DNA from: Campylobacteraceae bacterium
Lineage (GTDB): Bacteria; Campylobacterota; Campylobacteria; Campylobacterales; Arcobacteraceae
Direction of reading: 5' to 3'
Assembly (NCBI GenBank): GCA_013215985.1
Contig: JABSOL010000005.1
Location: 1 to 46,101 of the forward strand
DNA length: 46,101 nucleotides
The notes under the pieces were generated by a model that was not told the origin of the DNA, ran no database searches, and saw only the letters and a program-made list of their open reading frames with translations. The translations under genes were made by a program, and so were the position numbers. This document shows positions 2,687 to 43,400 of this stretch, one piece after another. Within the stretch, counting starts at the first letter, position 1; the number at the start of each line of letters is the position of its first letter.

Positions 2687-3499
2687 ATGAATAGAAGAAA
2701 CTTCTTAAAACAAAGTAATAAACTGGCTATTGGTGCAATAGTTACTGGACTTAATGCTAAAGCAATCATTACTTCACCTGAATTAATGGTGCCCAGTGAC
2801 TCGATAATAACATCTATAAAAGAAGTTCATAAAGATGTCTTTTTACCTTCTTTATATAGAAGTCCTCTAGCTAGTGTACGAAAAAAACTCAAATTAGTTC
2901 AAAGACATGTAGGATATGGTAATTTTAATATATTATCATTTGATGATATGTTATTTATTGGAAGAAATTATTCTAAAATTGGTAAATTCTCAAAACTTGA
3001 ACTTGAATTCATAGAATCTATTTTTTATTATGATCCTAGTGTACATGGATTTTATGGAGATAGAATAACATTATCGATAACTGAAAAAATTTATAAAAAA
3101 GCTTTATATAAAGTTCCTCATTCAGGACACTATGTATATAGAGGTAAAACTCTTGATGCCTATAACCATATGAAAAAAGATATAGGTGACTCAATTATTT
3201 TAACATCAGGTGTTAGATCTGTTGTAAAACAATTAAAACTTTTTGTTGATAAACTATATTCAGTAAAAGCTAACTTAAGTTTAGCTTCTAGATCAATAGC
3301 TCCTCCTGCTTTTACTTATCACTCTATTGGAGATTTTGATATTGGTAAAAAAGGTTTTGGATATGCAAACTTTACTTCTAGATTTGCTTTAACTGATGAA
3401 TTCTTTCGTATGAAAAAACTTACGTACATAGATATGAGATATACTGTTAATAATAAAGATGGAGTTAGATATGAACCTTGGCACATTAAAACTGTTTAA
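2687..3499 (+). CDS. Tat-exported M15 family metallopeptidase (D-Ala-D-Ala carboxypeptidase-like)
   Basis: Probable periplasmic zinc peptidase acting on peptidoglycan peptides. The N-terminus NRRNFLKQ followed by a hydrophobic stretch is a twin-arginine signal. The C-terminal half has the M15/VanY signatures in order: SGVRS, then YHSIGDFDIG (a His followed six residues later by Asp, matching the SxHxxGxxxD zinc motif), then EPWHI supplying the last zinc His. Length is 270 residues. The next gene, an M14 carboxypeptidase, starts inside its 3' end, and the pairing suggests joint peptidoglycan trimming. No strong Shine-Dalgarno is seen, but this start is needed for the Tat motif. The precise bond cleaved (DD or LD) is not determined. 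Confidence 0.82.
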   Translation: MNRRNFLKQSNKLAIGAIVTGLNAKAIITSPELMVPSDSIITSIKEVHKDVFLPSLYRSPLASVRKKLKLVQRHVGYGNFNILSFDDMLFIGRNYSKIGKFSKLELEFIESIFYYDPSVHGFYGDRITLSITEKIYKKALYKVPHSGHYVYRGKTLDAYNHMKKDIGDSIILTSGVRSVVKQLKLFVDKLYSVKANLSLASRSIAPPAFTYHSIGDFDIGKKGFGYANFTSRFALTDEFFRMKKLTYIDMRYTVNNKDGVRYEPWHIKTV

Positions 3500-4835
3500 A
3501 TATATTATTTTATTTTCTCTTTTGAGTACTTTATTAAGCGCTCAAAGTTTAAGACCTTTTGATTTATTTAAAAAAGGAATAGAAGATAATAATACACTTT
3601 TAGTTATTGGTGGAATACAAGGTGATGAACCTGGTGGGTTCATGTCTGCTTCTTTAATTGTTAGTCATTATACAATCACAAAAGGTTCTGTTTGGGTTGT
3701 TCCAAATTTAAATTTTGATTCAATAATTACAAGGTCTCGTGGTAGATTTGGTGACATGAATAGAAAATTCTCAAAACTCTCAAAAAAAGATCCTGATTAC
3801 GATAATGTAGAAGCTATTAAAAAGCTAATTCAAGCTGATAATGTAAAAATGATTGTAAATCTTCATGATGGAAGTGGTTTTTATAGAAAAAATTATATTG
3901 ATAAAAATCACTCACCATATAAATGGGGACAAAGTTCAATTATTGACCAAAACAATATTAATGTCGATAAATATAGTAATTTATACGATATATCTAAAGA
4001 AGTATGTGATTATATCAATAAAAGTTTATTAAAAAAACAACACTCTTATCAAGTTAGAAATACAAAAACAAAAGATGGCGATATAGAAATGGAGAGATCC
4101 TTAACATATTTTGCTATTAATAGAGGAAAAGCAGCTTTCGCAAATGAAGCTAGTAAAGCACTTCCTGTTCATCAAAGAACATATTACCATTTGCTTGCAC
4201 TTGAAAAGTATATGGATATTATGGGCATTGAATATACTCGAAAATTTGCTCTAAAAGAAAAAGAATTAAAAAATGTTATTGATAATGACATTTATATCTC
4301 TTTTTATGATAATAAAATTAATTTACCTTTATCAAGAATCAGAAATACTATTAAATATTTTCCTTTAAATAAAAAACAGATTATGGATTTTAAAGCATCT
4401 AATCCTTTAATGGTAGTTTTAAAAAAGAAAAATGTATATGCTATTCATTATGGAAATAGAAGAGTTACAAGGTTATTTCCTGATTATTTAGAAATGTCAA
4501 ATATTAATGAAAACATAAAAGTTAAAGTGGATGGTATTTTAAAAGAAGTTAAAATTGGTTCATTATTAGAAGTCCGAAAAAACTTTTATATTTATCCTTC
4601 AAAAGATTTAAGAGTTAATGTAATTGGTTTCTCAAAAAAGTATAGAAAAAATGAAGCTGGTTTAGTAATTTCTAAAAAACAAATCAGAAAAAGATTTTCT
4701 TTAGATAAAAATGGAAAGATTTATAGAATAGAATTTTATAAGGGTAAAAAGTTTGCAGGTATGTTATTAGTTAAATTTGATAAAAATATCAAATTTGCTT
4801 TAAATACAAATGAGTTTTTTAAAAATAAGATATAG
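3471..4835 (+). CDS. pgp1: Peptidoglycan DL-carboxypeptidase Pgp1/Csd4-like (M14 family)
   Basis: Periplasmic zinc carboxypeptidase of the Pgp1 (Campylobacter jejuni) / Csd4 (H. pylori) family, which trims tripeptide stem peptides to dipeptides and sets helical cell shape. The signal peptide is MNLGTLKLFKYIILFSLLSTLLSA. GGIQGDEPGG near residue 50 holds the first two zinc ligands, with the family's unusual Gln in place of His followed by Glu. NLHDGSGFY near residue 140 supplies the His ligand. The C-terminal half probably contains the extra beta domains of Csd4. The track starts at 3459, but the ATG at 3471 has GGAG six bases upstream and begins the signal peptide. It overlaps the M15 gene by 29 bases. 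Confidence 0.9.
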   Translation: MNLGTLKLFKYIILFSLLSTLLSAQSLRPFDLFKKGIEDNNTLLVIGGIQGDEPGGFMSASLIVSHYTITKGSVWVVPNLNFDSIITRSRGRFGDMNRKFSKLSKKDPDYDNVEAIKKLIQADNVKMIVNLHDGSGFYRKNYIDKNHSPYKWGQSSIIDQNNINVDKYSNLYDISKEVCDYINKSLLKKQHSYQVRNTKTKDGDIEMERSLTYFAINRGKAAFANEASKALPVHQRTYYHLLALEKYMDIMGIEYTRKFALKEKELKNVIDNDIYISFYDNKINLPLSRIRNTIKYFPLNKKQIMDFKASNPLMVVLKKKNVYAIHYGNRRVTRLFPDYLEMSNINENIKVKVDGILKEVKIGSLLEVRKNFYIYPSKDLRVNVIGFSKKYRKNEAGLVISKKQIRKRFSLDKNGKIYRIEFYKGKKFAGMLLVKFDKNIKFALNTNEFFKNKI

Positions 4836-33722: not shown

Positions 33723-33755
33723 CTCACTTTAAACTCACTTACTTTTACTAAAATA
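33723..33755 (+). promoter_or_regulatory. Conserved direct-repeat element upstream of the first oppA
   Basis: CTCACTTTAAACTCACTT holds two CTCACT copies 11 bases apart (one helical turn), followed by ACTTTTACTAAAATAT. The same block occurs before the second oppA at nearly the same distance from its ATG. A TATAAT box lies just upstream at 33715. It is probably a regulator site or core promoter shared by both genes. Confidence 0.55.
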
Positions 33756-33782
33756 TTTCATAAACTATTTTAAAGGAATGGA

Positions 33783-35372
33783 ATGAAAATAAAAAATATG
33801 GCGAAAGCTACATTATTAGCATGTTTGTTGGCTACAAGCGCAAATGCAGCCCAAGAATTAGTAAGAGGTAATGGTGCAGAACCAGCAACTCTAGATCCTA
33901 CTTTAGGTGAGGGATCTTCTGGTACAAATGTTATGAGAGATTTATTTGAAGGTCTTATGACTATTGATTCTCAAGGAAAGGTAATTCTAGGTCAAGCTGA
34001 ATCTTATACTATTTCTGATGATAAAAAAACCTATATATTTAAAATCAGAAAAGATGCAAAATGGTCAAATGGAGATCCTGTAACTGCTAATGATTTTGAA
34101 TATGCATTTAAAAGAGGAATTAATCCCAAAACTGCAGCTAGATATTCTTGGTATTTTAAAATTCTTGGAATTAAAAATGGTGCAGATATTTTATCTGGGA
34201 AAAAAGATGTATCAACTTTAGGTGTAACATCATTAGATTCTAAAACATTAAAAATTACTTTAGGTTCTGCAATTCCATATTTTTTAATTGGATTATCTCA
34301 TATTACAACAGCACCAATTCCTAAAAAACTAGTTGAGAAATTTGGAAATGAGTGGACAAAACCTTCTAATATTATTTCAAATGGAGCTTATAAATTATCT
34401 CAATGGGTAGTTAATGAAAAAATTGTTGCTGTAAAAAATGATAATTATTATGGAGCTTCAAAAGTTCAAATTGATAAAGTTACATTCTTACCAATTTCTG
34501 ATGGAAGTACTGCATATAATAGATATCAAGCTGGTGAAATTGATTTTGTTGATTCATTACCATCTAATAAATATAAACATTTAATGAAAACTATTCCTAA
34601 TGAAGTTAAAATTTTAGAATTAATTGGAACATATTATTATGATTTAAATATGAGGAAAAAACCATTTGAGGATATTAGAGTAAGACGCGCATTATCATAT
34701 TCAATTAATAGAGAAATTATTGCTAAAAAAGTCTTAGGCACTGGTCAAAAACCTGCTTATTCTTTTACACCTGATAATATTTCTGGATTTACTCCTTTAG
34801 TTCCAGAATATGCAAAATGGTCACAAAAAGAAAGAGAAGAAAAAGCTTTAAAATTATTAAGTGAGGCAGGCTTTTCCAAATCACATCCTTTAAAATTTGA
34901 AATTTTATATAATACTAATGAATCACATAAAAGAGTCGCTTTAGCTATTTCATCTATGTGGAATAAAGTACTAAAAGGTGCAGTTAAAGTTACTTTAGTA
35001 AATCAAGAATGGAAAACATTTTTAGATGTTAAAAATGAAGGTAAATTTGAAGTGTCACGTTCTGGATGGACTGGAGATTATAATGAAGCTTCAACTATGT
35101 TAGATATTTTAACAAAAGGGCATTCATCTAATAACTCACATTATGATAATCCTTTGTATGATAAATTAATGAATGAAGCTAGAACTACTACTGGTGACAA
35201 AGCAAGAAATATCTTATACCAAAAAGTTAATTCAATGATTACTAGAGATATGCCAGTTATTCCTATCTACCAATATACTACAGCTAGATTAATTAAACCT
35301 TATGTTAAAGGTTTTCCAACAGTTAGTCCTTTAGGATTTATTTTAACAAAATATTTAAGTATTAAAAAATAG
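33783..35372 (+). CDS. oppA: Oligopeptide-binding protein OppA, copy 1
   Basis: Periplasmic solute-binding protein of the oligopeptide ABC transporter (SBP_bac_5 family). A signal peptide with likely cleavage at SANA-AQE opens the protein. The mature chain follows E. coli OppA closely: LVRGNGAEPATLDPTLGEG, RDLFEGL, AKWSNGDPVTANDFEYAFKRG, SNGAYKLSQWVVNEKIV and LVNQEWKTFLD. SGWTGDYNEASTML retains the Asp that binds the peptide amino terminus in OppA. It has no lipobox. Length is 529. It is followed by a hairpin and by a close paralogue of identical length; both precede oppBCDF. Confidence 0.95.
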   Translation: MKIKNMAKATLLACLLATSANAAQELVRGNGAEPATLDPTLGEGSSGTNVMRDLFEGLMTIDSQGKVILGQAESYTISDDKKTYIFKIRKDAKWSNGDPVTANDFEYAFKRGINPKTAARYSWYFKILGIKNGADILSGKKDVSTLGVTSLDSKTLKITLGSAIPYFLIGLSHITTAPIPKKLVEKFGNEWTKPSNIISNGAYKLSQWVVNEKIVAVKNDNYYGASKVQIDKVTFLPISDGSTAYNRYQAGEIDFVDSLPSNKYKHLMKTIPNEVKILELIGTYYYDLNMRKKPFEDIRVRRALSYSINREIIAKKVLGTGQKPAYSFTPDNISGFTPLVPEYAKWSQKEREEKALKLLSEAGFSKSHPLKFEILYNTNESHKRVALAISSMWNKVLKGAVKVTLVNQEWKTFLDVKNEGKFEVSRSGWTGDYNEASTMLDILTKGHSSNNSHYDNPLYDKLMNEARTTTGDKARNILYQKVNSMITRDMPVIPIYQYTTARLIKPYVKGFPTVSPLGFILTKYLSIKK

Positions 35373-35380
35373 TCTTAAGT

Positions 35381-35409
35381 AAACAGTTTTTCTTTAAGAA
35401 AAACTGTTT
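35381..35409 (+). terminator. Hairpin after the first oppA
   Basis: AAACAGTTTTTCTT and AAGAAAAACTGTTT form a 14-bp perfect inverted repeat nine bases after the oppA copy 1 stop. A similar structure follows copy 2. It probably limits read-through or protects the oppA 3' end. Confidence 0.65.
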
Positions 35410-35461
35410 AGATGATTATAATGAGGTATTAGTTATATAATTTATATATAACTTAAGAAAA

Positions 35462-35494
35462 CTCACTAAAAACTCACTTCATTTTACTAACATA
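35462..35494 (+). promoter_or_regulatory. Conserved direct-repeat element upstream of the second oppA
   Basis: CTCACTAAAAACTCACTT has two CTCACT copies with the same 11-base spacing as upstream of copy 1, followed by CATTTTACTAACATAT. A TATAAT (35495-35500) lies directly after, 21 bases before the oppA ATG. The element is therefore part of the duplicated unit. Confidence 0.55.
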
Positions 35495-35520
35495 TATAAT
35501 ATATTAAAACGGAGGAAACA

Positions 35521-37110
35521 ATGAAATTATTTAAAATACTTAAAGTTGCTTTATTCACATGTTTATTAATAACATCTGCAAATGCAGCCCAAGAGCTAGT
35601 TCGTGGTAATGGTTCAGAACCTGCAACACTTGATCCTACTTTAGGTGAAGGAACTCCAGGTTCAAACATAACGAGAGATTTATTTGAAGGTCTTATGACT
35701 GTTGATGTTGAAGGAAATGTTATTCCTGGTCAAGCTGAATCATATACAATTTCAGATGATAAAAAGACATATGTCTTTAAAATTAGAAAAAATGCAAAAT
35801 GGTCAAATGGCGATGATGTAACAGCAAATGATTTTGAATATGCATTTAAAAGAGGAATAGATCCTGTAACTGCCGCAAGATATTCTTGGTATTTTAAAAT
35901 TTTAGGAATTAAAAATGGTGCAGATATTTTAGCTGGTAAAAAACCTGCTTCATCTTTAGGTGTAAAATCATTAGATTCTAAAACACTTGAAATTACATTA
36001 GGTACTCCAATCCCTTATTTTATTATTGGATTATCTCATATCTCAACATCTCCAGTTCCAAAAAAACTTATTGAAAAATATGGTAAAGACTGGACTAAAC
36101 CAGCTAATATTGCTTCAAATGGACCTTATAAATTATCTCAATGGGTAGTTAATGAAAAAATTGTAGCTATTAAAAATAATTTATATTATGGAGCTAAAGA
36201 TGTAAAAATTGAGAAAGTTACATTTTTACCAATTCCTAATCAAAGTACGGAATTAAATAGATATAAAGCTGGTGAAATTGACTTATTATATGAATTACCA
36301 AAAAATAAATATAAAAATCTTATGAAAACTATTCCTAATGAAGTTAAAGTTTTAGGTAGAGTTGGAACTTATTATTATTATTTAAATATGAAGAAAAAAC
36401 CATTTGATAATGTAAAAGTAAGAAAAGCTTTATCATATGCAGTAAATAGAGATATTTTGACTCAAAAAGTTTTAGGTACTGGCGAAAAACCTGCTTATAC
36501 TTTAGTGCCTGATAATGTTTCTGGTTTTACTCAAGTATTACCATCATATGCAAAATGGACTCAAAAAGAAAGAAATGAAAAAGCTAGAGAATTATTAAAA
36601 GAAGCTGGATTTACAAAATCAAATCCATTAAAATTTGAGATCTTATATAATACAAGTGAACAACATAAAAGAAATGCTTTAGCAATTTCATCTATGTGGA
36701 GATCTGCATTTAAAGGTGCTGTTAAAGTTACTTTAATTAATCAAGAGTGGAAAACATATCTTGACGAGAAAAAAGCTGGTAATTATCAAGTATCACGTGC
36801 AGGTTGGATTGGTGATTATAATGAAGCTTCTACTATGTTAGATTTATTAACAAAAGGACATTCTTCAAATAATTCATTTTACGATAACCCTGAGTATGAT
36901 AAATTAATGAATATAGCTAGAAGTACTTCTGATGATGTAAAAAGAAATAAATTATATCAAAAAGTAGATCTTATGATTGCTGAAGATATGCCTATTATTC
37001 CTTTATTTCAATATTCAAATGCAAGACTTGTTAAACCTTATGTTGGTGGTTACCCAAAAAGTAATCCATTGGATGCAATTCTTACAAAATACTTATATAT
37101 TAAAAAATAG
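35521..37110 (+). CDS. oppA: Oligopeptide-binding protein OppA, copy 2
   Basis: Second periplasmic oligopeptide-binding protein, 529 residues, colinear with copy 1 and clearly a tandem duplicate. Signal peptide ends at SANA-AQE. Signature stretches are LVRGNGSEPATLDPTLGEGTPGSNITRDLFEGLM, SNGPYKLSQWVVNEKIV, LINQEWKTYLD and AGWIGDYNEASTML, keeping the N-terminal-amine-binding Asp. The mid region differs from copy 1 (DLLYELPKNKYKNLM versus DFVDSLPSNKYKHLM), so the peptide preference may have shifted. GGAGG lies before the ATG, a stronger ribosome binding site than that of copy 1. It has its own promoter-like region and a hairpin before oppB. Confidence 0.95.
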   Translation: MKLFKILKVALFTCLLITSANAAQELVRGNGSEPATLDPTLGEGTPGSNITRDLFEGLMTVDVEGNVIPGQAESYTISDDKKTYVFKIRKNAKWSNGDDVTANDFEYAFKRGIDPVTAARYSWYFKILGIKNGADILAGKKPASSLGVKSLDSKTLEITLGTPIPYFIIGLSHISTSPVPKKLIEKYGKDWTKPANIASNGPYKLSQWVVNEKIVAIKNNLYYGAKDVKIEKVTFLPIPNQSTELNRYKAGEIDLLYELPKNKYKNLMKTIPNEVKVLGRVGTYYYYLNMKKKPFDNVKVRKALSYAVNRDILTQKVLGTGEKPAYTLVPDNVSGFTQVLPSYAKWTQKERNEKARELLKEAGFTKSNPLKFEILYNTSEQHKRNALAISSMWRSAFKGAVKVTLINQEWKTYLDEKKAGNYQVSRAGWIGDYNEASTMLDLLTKGHSSNNSFYDNPEYDKLMNIARSTSDDVKRNKLYQKVDLMIAEDMPIIPLFQYSNARLVKPYVGGYPKSNPLDAILTKYLYIKK

Positions 37111-37119
37111 TATTAATTA

Positions 37120-37148
37120 AAAAACTTTTCCTTTAAGGAAAAGTTTTT
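37120..37148 (+). terminator. Hairpin between the second oppA and oppB
   Basis: AAAAACTTTTCCTT and AAGGAAAAGTTTTT form a perfect 14-bp inverted repeat, with T-rich sequence at the end. As in other binding-protein operons, a partial terminator here would keep OppA in excess over the permease. Confidence 0.7.
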
Positions 37149-37172
37149 ATCTTAATAAAAAAGGATAAAAAA

Positions 37173-38093
37173 TTGTTAAAGTTTATAATAAAAAGAATTT
37201 TTGTTGCTATTCCAACCTTATTGGTACTTATTAGTATATCTTTTATTCTCGTTCACTCAGCACCAGGTTCACCGTTTACAGATGATAGAGATATTGCACC
37301 TGAAATAATGAGAAGTATTGAAGCTAAATATCATTTAGATAAACCATTATATGTGCAATATGTATATTATCTAAAAGATGTGGTTACTTGGGATTTTGGA
37401 CCATCTTTTAAATATAAAGATTTTTCAATTAATGAACTTGTAAATTCTGCATTTTTAGTTTCATTGAAAATTGGATTTTGGGCATTTGCATTTGCTGTGA
37501 TAATTGGCGTCGCCTGTGGTGTGGTTGCGGCCCTAAATCAAAATACTAAAGTTGATTATATAATTATGTCCTGTGCAATGGTTGGAGTTGCAATACCTAA
37601 CTTTGTACTGGGCCCTGTATTAGTTTTAACTTTTGCAATATTCTTCAAAGTCTTACCAGCTGGTGGTTGGAATGGTGGTGGAATAGAATATATTATTTTA
37701 CCAGTTATTGCTATGAGTTTTAGATATATAGCCTCAATTGCTAGAATTATGAGAGCTTCAATGATTGAAGTACTTAATTCAAACTTTATTAGAACTGCAA
37801 AAGCTAAGGGTATGGGAAAAACTTATATTATTTTTCATCATGCATTAAGACCTTCAATTTTACCTGTTGTTTCATATATGGGACCAGCATTTGTAGGAAT
37901 TATTACAGGATCAGTAGTAATTGAGACAATTTTTGGACTTCCTGGAATTGGACAATTATTTGTAAATGGTGCTTTAAATAGAGATTATAATATGGTATTA
38001 ACTCTGACAATTATTGTTGGTGGATTAATGATTCTGTTCAATACAATTGTAGATATTTTATATGTTGTAATTGATCCTAAAATTAAATATTAA
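37173..38093 (+). CDS. oppB: Oligopeptide ABC transporter permease OppB
   Basis: Inner-membrane permease subunit of the Opp importer. The 306-residue protein follows E. coli OppB very closely: IPTLLVLISISFILVHSAPGSPFTDDR, YHLDKPLYVQYVYYLKD, DFGPSFKYKDFSINELV, the coupling-helix region NFIRTAKAKGMGKTYIIFHHALRPSILPV, and GPAFVGIITGSVVIETIFGLPGIGQLFVNGALNRDYNMV. Six membrane segments are expected. The start codon is TTG at 37173 with AAGGA eight bases upstream; MLKFIIKR matches the family N-terminus, so the TTG is believable. oppC follows within 10 bases. Confidence 0.96.
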   Translation: MLKFIIKRIFVAIPTLLVLISISFILVHSAPGSPFTDDRDIAPEIMRSIEAKYHLDKPLYVQYVYYLKDVVTWDFGPSFKYKDFSINELVNSAFLVSLKIGFWAFAFAVIIGVACGVVAALNQNTKVDYIIMSCAMVGVAIPNFVLGPVLVLTFAIFFKVLPAGGWNGGGIEYIILPVIAMSFRYIASIARIMRASMIEVLNSNFIRTAKAKGMGKTYIIFHHALRPSILPVVSYMGPAFVGIITGSVVIETIFGLPGIGQLFVNGALNRDYNMVLTLTIIVGGLMILFNTIVDILYVVIDPKIKY

Positions 38094-38103
38094 AGAATTC
38101 AAA

Positions 38104-39000
38104 ATGATGATAAGCAAAGAAAACGAAGAAGTCTTAAATGACTTAGAATTAGAAAGTAGATCGTTATTCCAAGATGCAAAAGTTAGATTTTTTAAAAATA
38201 AAGCAGCTGTATTCTCTTTATTTGTAATTTTATTTATTGTATTTATGGTTATATTTGGTCAAAGTATGTCAAGTTTTTCATATGAAGATATTGACTGGGA
38301 TTATATGCAAGAAGCTCCATCGTTTGTAAATGGGCACTTTTTTGGAACAGATGATTTAGGTAGAGATATATTTGTAAGAACACTTCAAGGTGGTAAAATA
38401 TCTTTAATGGTTGGTATTATGGGAGCTGTTGTTGCCGTATTTATTGGTGTTTTATACGGAGCACTTGCAGGATTTTTTGGTGGAAAAATAGATAATTACA
38501 TGATGAGATTTGTTGATATCTTAGCATCTTTTCCATTCATGTTTTTTGTGATTTTATTAGTTACATTTTTTGGAAGAAATATTGGTTTTATATTTGTTGC
38601 AATTGGAATGGTTTCATGGTTAGATATAGCAAGAATTGTAAGAGGTCAGACTCTAGCTTTAAAAGAAAAAGAATTTATTGAAGCTGCACATGTTTCAGGA
38701 ACTAGTGATTATAAAATTGTTACAAAACATATTATTCCAAACGTTTTAGGAATAGTAGTTGTATATGCAACGCTTTTAATTCCTAATATGATTATTTTTG
38801 AATCATTCCTTAGTTTCTTAGGTCTTGGTGTTCAAGAACCTGATACTTCTTGGGGAGCTTTAGTTAATGAAGGTTCAAAAGTTATGGATATTGCTTATTG
38901 GCAATTACTTTTCCCTGGTATGTTTTTAGTTGTTACACTGTTTTGTTTTAATTTTGTTGGTGATGGGCTAAGAGATGCTCTTGATCCAAAAGATAGATAG
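38104..39000 (+). CDS. oppC: Oligopeptide ABC transporter permease OppC
   Basis: Second inner-membrane permease subunit of the Opp importer. After an acidic N-terminal segment (ENEEVLNDLELESRSLFQDA), TM1 is AVFSLFVILFIVFMVIFG. The family stretch NGHFFGTDDLGRDIFVRTLQGGKISLMVG follows, then the coupling loop EFIEAAHVSGTSDYKIVTKHIIPNVLG and FLSFLGLGVQEPDTSWGALVNEG. The ORF track starts at a TTG inside oppB. The ATG at 38104, ten bases after the oppB stop, gives a 298-residue protein of normal size and is preferred; the neighbouring ATG at 38107 is also possible. Confidence 0.95.
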   Translation: MMISKENEEVLNDLELESRSLFQDAKVRFFKNKAAVFSLFVILFIVFMVIFGQSMSSFSYEDIDWDYMQEAPSFVNGHFFGTDDLGRDIFVRTLQGGKISLMVGIMGAVVAVFIGVLYGALAGFFGGKIDNYMMRFVDILASFPFMFFVILLVTFFGRNIGFIFVAIGMVSWLDIARIVRGQTLALKEKEFIEAAHVSGTSDYKIVTKHIIPNVLGIVVVYATLLIPNMIIFESFLSFLGLGVQEPDTSWGALVNEGSKVMDIAYWQLLFPGMFLVVTLFCFNFVGDGLRDALDPKDR

Positions 39001-39008
39001 GAGATATT

Positions 39009-39980
39009 ATGAGTTTACTTGAAGTAAGAGATTTAAGTATTAGTTTTGATACACCAGATGGTTCTGTACAAGCTGTTAATAAATTAAATTTTACAGTTGA
39101 AGAAGGTAAAACTTTAGGAATTGTGGGAGAATCGGGAAGCGGAAAATCTCAAAGTGTATTTTCTATTATGGGACTTTTAGCTAAAAATGGACACGCAAGT
39201 GGATCTGTTAAATTTAAAGGTAAAGAAATATTAAATTTGCCAGAAAAGGACTTAAATCTAATTAGATCAGAGCAAATTGCAATGATCTTCCAAGATGCAA
39301 TGACTTCTTTAAATCCATATATGAAAGTTAAAAAACAGTTAATGGAAGTTTTAATTAAACATAAAGGACTATCTTCAAAAGATGCTTTTACTGAGAGTCT
39401 TAAAATGTTAGATGCTGTTAAAATTCCAGAGTCTAAAAAAAGAATGGAAATGTACCCACATGAATTCTCAGGTGGTATGAGACAAAGATTAATGATTGCT
39501 ATGTCATTACTTTGTAATCCCAAACTTTTAATTGCTGATGAGCCTACTACTGCTTTAGATGTAACAGTGCAAGCTCAGATTTTAGCGCTTTTAAATGAAT
39601 TAAAAAAAGAATTTAATACAGGAATTATTTTAATTACTCATGATTTAGGTGTAGTTGCTGGTTCATGTGATGATGTTATGGTTATGTATGCAGGATCAAC
39701 AATGGAATATGGAACAGTTGAAGATATATTCTATGAACCTTCTCATCCTTATACAGTTTCTCTTCTTAAATCAATTCCTAAACTAAGTGATAATTTAGAG
39801 AAACTAGAAACAATACCCGGAAATCCTCCTAATATTATGAATTTACCAAAAGGCTGTGCATTTGAACAAAGATGTTATGCAGCAAAACCTGAGTGTAAAA
39901 TAGAAAGACCAGCTTTAGTTGGTTTTTCAAACAATACAAGACATAGAGCATGTTTTTCTGAAGGATTCCAAAATGTCTAG
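39009..39980 (+). CDS. oppD: Oligopeptide ABC transporter ATP-binding protein OppD
   Basis: Cytoplasmic ATPase subunit of the Opp importer. Walker A is GESGSGKSQSV, the Q-loop is IFQDAMTSLNP, the ABC signature is FSGGMRQRLMIAM, Walker B is LLIADEPTTALD and the H-loop is ITHDLGVV. The C-terminal oligopeptide-transporter extension has PHPYTVSLLKSIP-like sequence (EPSHPYTVSLLKSIP) and the PKGCAFEQRCYAAKPEC cysteine cluster that holds a 4Fe-4S site in some Opp/Dpp ATPases. AGGAG before the ATG is a strong ribosome binding site. The 3' end overlaps oppF by eight bases. Confidence 0.96.
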   Translation: MSLLEVRDLSISFDTPDGSVQAVNKLNFTVEEGKTLGIVGESGSGKSQSVFSIMGLLAKNGHASGSVKFKGKEILNLPEKDLNLIRSEQIAMIFQDAMTSLNPYMKVKKQLMEVLIKHKGLSSKDAFTESLKMLDAVKIPESKKRMEMYPHEFSGGMRQRLMIAMSLLCNPKLLIADEPTTALDVTVQAQILALLNELKKEFNTGIILITHDLGVVAGSCDDVMVMYAGSTMEYGTVEDIFYEPSHPYTVSLLKSIPKLSDNLEKLETIPGNPPNIMNLPKGCAFEQRCYAAKPECKIERPALVGFSNNTRHRACFSEGFQNV

Positions 39981-40956
39981 TGATATTATTTTAAAAGTAG
40001 AAGACTTAAGAGTTACTTTTGATATTAAATCAAATAAACACTTTTTTGACTTTGGAATAGATAAGTTAAAAGCAGTTGATGGTATTTCATTTGAATTAAA
40101 ACAAGGTGAAACTTTAGGAATTGTTGGTGAGTCTGGTTGTGGTAAATCTACTTTAGCGCGGGCTATTATAGATTTAGTTCCAAGTGCATCTGGTAAGATT
40201 ATATTTGAAGGGAAAGATTTAACTAGTATTTCTAAAAAAGAGAGATGGTTACTTAAAAAAGATATGCAAATGATTTTTCAAGATCCTTTAGCATCTTTAG
40301 ATCCTAGAATGACAATTGGTGATATCATATCAGAACCTTTATTATCATTTTTTCCAGAATTAGATAAAAAACAAAGAAAAGAAAAAGTTCTTACAATTAT
40401 GGCAAAAGTTGGTTTATTACCAAATGTTATTAATAGATATGCTCATGAATTTTCAGGTGGTCAGTGTCAAAGAATTGGAATTGCTCGTGCATTAATTACT
40501 GAACCAAAACTTATTATTTGTGATGAACCAGTTTCCGCTTTAGATGTATCTATTCAGGCACAAGTTACAAATCTACTTATGGATTTACAAAAAGAAATGA
40601 ATTTATCTTTAATCTTTATTTCTCATGATTTATCTGTAGTAAAACATATCTCAAATAAGATTTTAGTTATTTATTTAGGAAATATGGTTGAATTTGCTGA
40701 TAAAAATGAATTATTTGATAATCCTTTACATCCTTATAATAAAGCACTAATTTCTGCAGTTCCAGTTGCAGATCCACGATTAGAAAAAGCTAAAAAGATT
40801 ATATTCTTAGAAGGTGATTTACCCTCACCTATTAATCCTCCATCTGGCTGTGTATTTAGAACTAGATGTCCTAATGTTATTGAAAAGTGTTCAATAGACA
40901 AACCAGGAATTACAAAAATTAACGATAAACATATTTTACAGTGTTATAATTACTAA
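39973..40956 (+). CDS. oppF: Oligopeptide ABC transporter ATP-binding protein OppF
   Basis: Second ATPase subunit of the Opp importer, pairing with OppD. Walker A is GESGCGKSTLARA, the Q-loop IFQDPLASLDPRMTIGDII, the signature FSGGQCQRIGIARAL, Walker B LIICDEPVSALD and the H-loop ISHDLSVVKHIS. The C-terminal extension has NPLHPYNKALISAVPVADP, PSPINPPSGCVFRTRCP and further Cys. The track start (39919) lies inside oppD. The ATG at 39973 has AAGGA seven bases upstream and gives 327 residues, the usual size. It overlaps the oppD stop and is the last gene of the operon. Confidence 0.96.
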   Translation: MSSDIILKVEDLRVTFDIKSNKHFFDFGIDKLKAVDGISFELKQGETLGIVGESGCGKSTLARAIIDLVPSASGKIIFEGKDLTSISKKERWLLKKDMQMIFQDPLASLDPRMTIGDIISEPLLSFFPELDKKQRKEKVLTIMAKVGLLPNVINRYAHEFSGGQCQRIGIARALITEPKLIICDEPVSALDVSIQAQVTNLLMDLQKEMNLSLIFISHDLSVVKHISNKILVIYLGNMVEFADKNELFDNPLHPYNKALISAVPVADPRLEKAKKIIFLEGDLPSPINPPSGCVFRTRCPNVIEKCSIDKPGITKINDKHILQCYNY

Positions 40957-41198: not shown

Positions 41199-43400
41199 AT
41201 GAGTAATTTATCTATTAGAGCAAAACTTGTGATTGTCACTATTTTAACAATTATTGGGTTTATTATTTTGGTTTTATTTAATTATCAGTCAAATGCAAGG
41301 CTAGATTATTTAAATAATGTTGAATCTTCTGTTGAAAAACTACAAACAGAGATATTAAGATTAAGAAAACATGAAAAAGATTTTTTATTAAGAAAAGATC
41401 TTAAATATTTAAAACTCTTTGATAAAGGGTTTAAACAATTAGAGAATGATAGAGATATTGTAAAAAGAGAGTTTAAGAAATTAGAGCTTGATTTAAGAAA
41501 AATAAATTATTTCTATAAAATTTCTGATTCTTATAAAAAAGAGTTTAATAAACTTGTATCCTTACAAGTAGAAATTGGATTAAGCCCAAGTGAAAAATTA
41601 TATGGCAATTTAAGATCTAGTGTACATGCTGTTCAAACAGATGCAAAAAAAGATGCAAATTTTGAATTATTATCTATGATTTTTAATTTAAGAAAACTTG
41701 AAAAAGATTTTATGCTTAGAAAAGATTTAAAATATATAGGTTATTTTAAATTAGCTATGAAAGAATTATTTGAAACTACAAGATTAATTGATGAAAAACA
41801 AATAATTAATTTAAAAGATTATCAGAGTGATTTGTTAGAAATTGTAAATAAAGATGTTGAACTTGGTTTAAATGAAAAATCTGGAATTAAATCTAAATTA
41901 CATGAAATTGTTGTTGATACAGAGACTTCAATTAAAGAAATGGTAAAAAATATTAGAATTAAAATAAATAAAGAGAGTGATGAATTAGTTTTATATAATT
42001 TAAGTATTGCTGCTTTAATTATTCTTATAATTTCATTTATAATCTATTTTATTTCAAAAAATATTATATCTTCAATTAACAATTTCCAAAGTGGATTAAT
42101 TGGATTTTTCAAATATTTAAATAGAGAAGTTGATACCGTAGATGAATTAAGAATTACAGGCAAAGATGAAATAAATGCTATGGCTGTTATTATTAATGAT
42201 AATATTAAAACTATTAAAATTGATCTTGATAAGGATAAAAGTATTATTCACGAGACAATAGATGCTTTATCTAATTATGAACAAGGTGATTTTTCTTCAA
42301 AAATTAATACTAAGTCTTCTAACCCAGCATTAAATGATTTAACTGAAGTAATTAACAAAATGTCTAGAAATTTAGAGAAAAATATTGATAGTATTTTAGC
42401 TGTCTTTGAAGAGTTTGAAAAATTCGATTATACAAAACAAGTATCTACAAAAGGAATAAAAGCCCATTTAGAAAAATTAGCAATGGGTGTTAATGATTTA
42501 GGTTTAAATATTTCTACTTTATTAAAAAAATCTCTTGAAATTGGTTTAACTTTAGATGATTCATCTGATAAACTAATTACTAATGTTGATATTTTAAATA
42601 AATCTTCAACTGAAGCTGCCATGTCTTTAGAAGAAACAGCAGCAGCATTAGAAGAAGTTACGAGTACTATTATTTCAAATGCTCAAAACGTTAAAGAAAT
42701 GTCTGCATATGCTCAAGAGTTAAATGATTCTGCTAAATCGGGACAAGAATTAGCTCAAAATACAACTCAAGCTATGGAAGATATTACAAAACAAGTTACT
42801 TTTATTAATGAATCAATTTCAATTATTGATCAAATTGCTTTCCAGACAAATATTCTTTCATTGAATGCAGCCGTTGAAGCTGCTACTGCAGGAGAAGCTG
42901 GAAAAGGTTTTGCAGTAGTTGCTCAAGAAGTGAGAAACTTAGCTTCACGATCAGCAGAAGCCGCAAAAGAAATAAAAGAGTTAGTTGAGAATGCTACTAT
43001 TAAAGCTACAGAGGGAAAAAACATATCATCTGAGATGATTACAGGTTATGAATCATTATTAGAGAATATATCAAATTCTACTAAAAAAATAGAAGAAATT
43101 TCAACTGCAAGTAAAGAACAAGAAACAGCAATTACACAAATTAATGATGCTGTTAATAGACTTGATCAGCAAACGCAAGAAAATGCTGCAACTGCTGCTA
43201 AAACGCATACGATTGCTGTTGAAACTGATGTTATTGCAAAAGAAATAGTATCAGATGCAAATAGTAAAAACTTTATAGGAAAAGACTCTGTTCACGCAAT
43301 TGTAAGAGAAAGACCTGAAAAAGTAGATAAAAGTATTAGCGTACGTAAACATGAAAAAGTTGTACATACAAAAGATGATAAAGAGTGGGAAAGTTTTTAA
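41199..43400 (+). CDS. Methyl-accepting chemotaxis protein with helical sensor and CheR-type pentapeptide
   Basis: Inner-membrane chemoreceptor of 733 residues. TM1 is at about 9-28. The periplasmic part (30-265) is all helical and contains an internal repeat, [20 protein letters not shown] near residue 55 and [20 protein letters not shown] near 165, which suggests a helical bimodular (HBM-like) sensor. TM2 lies at about 267-290. The MCP tip [48 protein letters not shown] is near 545-595. A ~45-residue basic linker follows, ending in EWESF, which fits the xWxxF pentapeptide that tethers CheR or CheB. AAGGATGGGAC precedes the ATG. Ligand unknown; HBM sensors of this type often see small organic acids. 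Confidence 0.93.

Follow-up and report, generated by a model that had tools for sequence, protein, structure and literature searches.

A tandem CTCACT operator at a fixed distance from the -10 element upstream of oppA genes in an Arcobacteraceae bacterium, and its probable recognition by an OmpR/PhoB-type response regulator

Response regulator operators are already known as a kind of system, as in PhoB, HP1043, and DccR. The DccR motif, reportedly given by Wosten in 2010, is said to be wTTCAC-N6-TTCACw positioned over the -35 region. DccRS of Campylobacter jejuni is a two-component system; the genes that it activates encode putative proteins of the periplasm and membrane (PMC9449129; PMC7118207). 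For HP1043 of Helicobacter pylori, the sites are TTTAAG hexamers with a 5-bp spacer that overlap the promoter, an arrangement read as typical of activators (PMC8345958). KdpE sites are 6-bp repeats with a 5-bp spacer (PMC3264566), and those of Mycobacterium tuberculosis PhoP are 7-bp motifs with a strict 4-bp spacer, triple tandem motifs being bound more tightly (PMC4832192). In Sulfurospirillum, the OmpR-family response regulator PceP (RR2) has a direct repeat over the -35 box and a TANNAT -10 element (PMC7755780).

We analyzed a 46,101-nt window (the whole stretch of DNA under study) that carries two tandem oppA genes on the plus strand, oppA1 (33783..35372) and oppA2 (35521..37110), each encoding a family-5 solute-binding protein of 529 amino acids. 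The two proteins are 73% identical, and profile comparison placed both genes in SBP_bac_5 with OppA as the best-scoring match. Genes for the transporter permeases and ATPases, oppB, oppC, oppD, and oppF (37173..40956, plus strand), are presumably served by the oppA2 promoter. The first-pass annotation correctly described a CTCACT-N5-CTCACT direct repeat with an 11-bp period 43 to 44 nt before both ATGs (33783 and 35521). The operator upstream of oppA1 (33723..33739, plus strand) reads CTCACT TTAAA CTCACT, with half-sites at 33723-33728 and 33734-33739, and that upstream of oppA2 (35462..35478, plus strand) reads CTCACT AAAAA CTCACT, with half-sites at 35462-35467 and 35473-35478. A shared TTTTACTAA(A/C)ATAT block, also described in that annotation, is present at both genes, but on refinement its conserved part is mainly a predicted -10 element, TAAAAT for oppA1 (33749..33754, plus strand) and TAACAT for oppA2 (35488..35493, plus strand), each 9 nt past the second half-site. 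The longer form ACTCACT-N4-ACTCACTT occurs in both half-sites of copy 2 only, as copy 1 starts with TCTCACT. The full module is CTCACT-N5-CTCACT-N9-TANNNT, a tandem operator joined to a sigma-70-type -10 box. No good -35 hexamer was visible in either oppA promoter of the window, and the operator occupies the -35 region. A generic sigma-70 scan, which gave fewer matches than shuffled sequences, missed the oppA promoters because they are promoters without a -35 hexamer.

This architecture has the features of an OmpR/PhoB-type operator: two direct half-sites at an 11-bp period, with a third in register in one relative (G044); a sigma-70 -10 element at a fixed distance, together with overlap of the -35 region; and a linked response regulator, composed of receiver and Trans_reg_C domains, with its cognate kinase. 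Going by the motif reported for it, DccR, an OmpR-type regulator from the same phylum, is the nearest known case, with the same 11-bp period and a nearly identical half-site. However, the first base of the half-site is C here and T in DccR, the sites do not fit wTTCAC-N6-TTCACw, and the genes targeted here encode a kinase and the solute-binding proteins of nutrient transporters. HP1043 also belongs to the OmpR/PhoB family and has N5-spaced hexamers, but the hexamers here are CTCACT and do not fit the HP1043/CosR pattern TTTAAG-N5-TTTAAG; the regulators considered here also have partner kinases, while HP1043, which is essential, is an orphan whose receiver is degenerate. PhoB, KdpE, and M. tuberculosis PhoP share tandem half-sites at an 11-bp period with our module and differ in half-site sequence and regulon; the PhoP triple motif resembles the triple site in G044. 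The sites do not fit the pho box (CTGTCAT-like half-sites, phosphate regulon), as the targets here are peptide, TRAP, and kinase genes, and regulator RR251 scored 70.8 bits against the PhoB equivalog, for which the cut-off is 296.2. PceP is also from Campylobacterota, but its CTATW-N17-CTATW repeat has a 22-bp period and serves an organohalide-respiration regulon.

The repeat occurs far above chance, as a genome-wide search suggested by the first-pass annotation revealed. Three exact copies of CTCACT-N5-CTCACT are present in the same genome (G000; 2.78 Mb in 291 contigs) versus none of the reversed-pattern control, and scanning with the full module yielded six sites at 0 to 1 mismatch and none at 2, with background beginning at 3. 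These six sites are at oppA1, oppA2, dppA1, dppA2, DctP on C33, and C32:3689-3720. The third exact copy (C251:6490) precedes gene 2 of a further pair of tandem solute-binding genes, which are closest to DppA. Gene 1 of this pair is preceded by a one-mismatch copy (C251:4719), which lies in the intergenic region separating that gene from a divergently oriented kinase and response regulator; the transporter operon on C251 also includes an Xaa-Pro dipeptidase. Another one-mismatch copy, at C33:1869, is immediately flanked by a kinase/regulator pair on one side and a DctP TRAP gene on the other. The cluster of this DctP gene (L010:1923-7454; orthologous loci L158 and L159) includes genes for the 5-oxoprolinase PxpA, PxpB, and a PxpC-like protein, which suggests a pyroglutamate TRAP system. 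In relatives, a CTCACT-N5-CACACT module is found at PxpA as well.

Across 104 Arcobacter-family genomes (about 250 Mb), we found 60 exact repeats versus 9 matches to the reversed-pattern control, a control rate that predicts far fewer than one match per 46-kb window. Forty-eight of the 60 were positioned as promoter elements: 23 before DctP (the TRAP solute-binding gene), mostly directly downstream of a regulator gene; 14 before the kinase gene of a kinase-regulator operon; 6 before oppA; and 5 before dppA (dipeptide-binding), divergent from a kinase-regulator pair. The other 12, about as many as the control background, were rejected as background, with 8 lying within coding sequences and 4 in intergenic but misplaced positions that by inspection lacked a -10 element at offset 9. 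Among 46 distinct sites, 44 had a TANNNT starting exactly 9 nt past the second half-site; at each of the other offsets between 0 and 21, the motif was seen in 5 of the 46 or fewer. On inspection, the two sites that deviated were a chance, non-promoter match in G089 and, in the G044 triple site, the outer repeat. A close relative of the response regulator was present in all 30 genomes with a promoter-positioned site, and none of the 45 genomes without such a relative had one (Fisher p about 1e-9, kinship ignored). The kinase-regulator-box-DctP arrangement also occurs in another family (G370).

Two regulators in the same genome are linked to the operator. One, on C251 (L008:2088-2768), is encoded with its kinase (2761-4626) divergently to the two tandem dipeptide-binding genes, which have this operator too, and its paralogue on C33 (L010:1156-1863) lies beside the TRAP/5-oxoprolinase cluster, again with the same operator. 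The regulators combine a Response_reg receiver with a Trans_reg_C winged helix, and the kinases contain dCache_2 and HATPase_c domains. While kinase-regulator genes are linked to the operator at the dpp and TRAP loci, the window has no response regulator gene adjoining oppA, and regulation of oppA would thus occur in trans. Family half-sites follow CTCAC-N6-CTCAC as CTCACT or CTCACC, rarely CTTACT, and regulators linked to these boxes in the dpp and TRAP groups have the recognition helix MS..ALKTFIK, rarely MT, as assigned by alignment. Cases with MT include G060 in the TRAP group (helix MTMSALKT; boxes CTCACT-CTCACC and CTCACT-CACACT) and G078 in the dpp group (helix MTTSALKT; box CCTACT-CTTACC). 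Many TRAP loci were sampled because of their exact boxes, and CTCAC boxes were also found at G033, G038, G060, G068, and G071, which were sampled via the regulator.

Half-site sequence is associated with helix class in other paralogues as well. Regulators adjoining AGCS carrier, aspartate ammonia-lyase, and asparaginase genes (the AspA/AlsT-linked paralogues, loci L262-L299) have the helix MT.HALKS; their boxes, for example CACACT-N5-CATACT, match the CTCAC boxes in period, -10 spacing, and position. A further paralogue group combines the helix MTQ[DN]ALKT with CACACT-type boxes. The regulator tree places the dpp group as sister to the AspA/AlsT group rather than to the TRAP group; half-site therefore tends to track the helix over overall similarity. 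It is possible, though less likely than not, that a group of duplicated Arcobacteraceae response regulators became nutrient-specific switches by changes in the first turn of the helix and in half-site positions 1 to 3, keeping the period, -10 distance, and promoter position, and that peptide- and pyroglutamate-linked regulators still share an operator, so that peptide uptake would respond to two sensors. With helix and half-site differing between groups while the geometry stays fixed, these paralogues offer a natural data set on how DNA specificity changes after duplication, and only a few proteins would be needed to test predictions made from sequence. Beside more distant response regulators of the same genome, solute-binding genes are preceded by other 11-bp direct repeats (AGATACA-N4-AGATACA, TTGAAAC-N4-TTGAAAC, and TGCTAT; L048 C239, L058 C19, and L055 C29), which are probably the operators of those regulators.

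Taken with its position and linkage, the element is in our view very probably the operator of an OmpR/PhoB-type response regulator, paired with a dCache kinase, that activates peptide uptake. In the mechanism that we propose, the periplasmic dCache sensor domain of the membrane kinase would read a nutrient signal, and the kinase would phosphorylate the regulator. The regulator would then bind as a head-to-tail dimer over the -35 region, with one subunit per CTCACT half-site and the subunits 11 bp apart, and would bring sigma-70 RNA polymerase to the -10 box starting 9 nt downstream, turning on oppA1 and oppA2-BCDF. The likeliest acting regulator is the dpp-linked one on C251, and the C33 regulator, whose recognition helix is very similar and whose operator is the same, may share the site. 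Indeed, it is quite possible, if short of probable, that the oppA promoters are under the TRAP/5-oxoprolinase-linked C33 regulator, or under both regulators, rather than under the C251 regulator alone: the half-site and the MS..ALKT helix class are common to both, and relatives of both are found in all four oppA-bearing genomes. On plausibility, however, the dpp-linked regulator is the better substrate fit for peptides, since it serves a transporter of the family to which OppA belongs (SBP_bac_5).

The first-pass annotation had proposed either a common activator or repressor or a dedicated promoter type. The idea of one regulator shared by the two oppA copies is supported, and more specifically the site can be read as an OmpR/PhoB-type operator overlapping the -35 region, carried also by orthologues and by unrelated transporter and kinase genes. 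A repressor that binds the site and occludes the -35 region, which the operator does cover, is improbable, as the operator-to--10 layout resembles that of the activators PhoB and HP1043, the two window promoters have no good -35 hexamer, and the strict 9-nt spacing to the -10 element would be needed for contact between an activator and polymerase but not for simple occlusion. Use of the CTCACT box by a regulator outside this response regulator group, such as a CosR/HP1043-like orphan, is more doubtful still; direct repeats with an 11-bp period are widespread in the OmpR/PhoB family, but in many genomes the box directly follows the response regulator gene or precedes its kinase gene, and its sequence varies with the regulator paralogue group. 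The dedicated promoter type does not hold up, since there is nothing unusual about the -10 element and the half-sites upstream of it differ between paralogous regulators; the same two points rule out a dedicated sigma factor.

Absence of the repeat from oppA orthologues had been set beforehand as grounds for abandoning its regulatory interpretation, and the repeat was present in G003, G044, and G001. This oppA was found in just 4 of the 104 family genomes, so that the comparison covers four genomes and few lineages, and all six oppA genes in these genomes, including single-copy orthologues, carry the module. In G003, which is nearly the same species, both oppA copies have the operator. The single oppA of G044, from another genus, has three in-register half-sites, CTCACT-AATAA-CTCACT-AATAA-CTCACT (L162:5360-5387), with TAAAGT at 9 nt, suggesting room for a third regulator subunit. 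The single oppA of G001 has CTCAGA-N5-CTCACT, with a degenerate first half-site, and TACAAT at 9 nt. That the repeat is a by-product of the oppA tandem duplication with no regulatory role can practically be dismissed: the identity of oppA1 and oppA2, along with some alignable upstream sequence, means that the window copies are not independent, but the single-copy orthologues in G044 and G001 carry the element, which is thus independent of tandem duplication, and it precedes unrelated genes (DctP, kinase, and dppA) across 30 genomes with the -10 spacing fixed, ruling out recent duplication as its cause.

A literature search, with most subscription literature outside its reach, found no paper describing the operator or its regulon, and the regulon appears to be undescribed. 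The A. butzleri genome paper lists 78 two-component genes, for which comparison with other bacteria predicts little of kinase function (PMC2147049). With the regulatory reading of the CTCACT module, a likely regulator can be assigned, along with an operator and a -10 element, to a group of nutrient-uptake promoters in a family rich in two-component systems.

The oppA genes themselves may have a foreign origin. Compared with named genomes, OppA matched almost only gammaproteobacterial OppA and one 99% identical Arcobacteraceae metagenome-assembled genome, these matches being left out of the promoter comparison. Besides that near-identical genome, the named relatives that come nearest are proteins of Endozoicomonas, 52% identical (window 33783-40956); together with the rarity of this oppA, this hints at horizontal transfer. 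A chemoreceptor gene follows oppF (window 41199-43400), likewise in G003, and is missing at that spot in G001. The C32 copy of the module (L009:3689-3720, minus strand) has a perfect TATAAT and lies about 130 bp upstream of an NMT1/SBP_bac_3/PAS/GGDEF fusion gene, through which a link of the regulon to c-di-GMP is possible.
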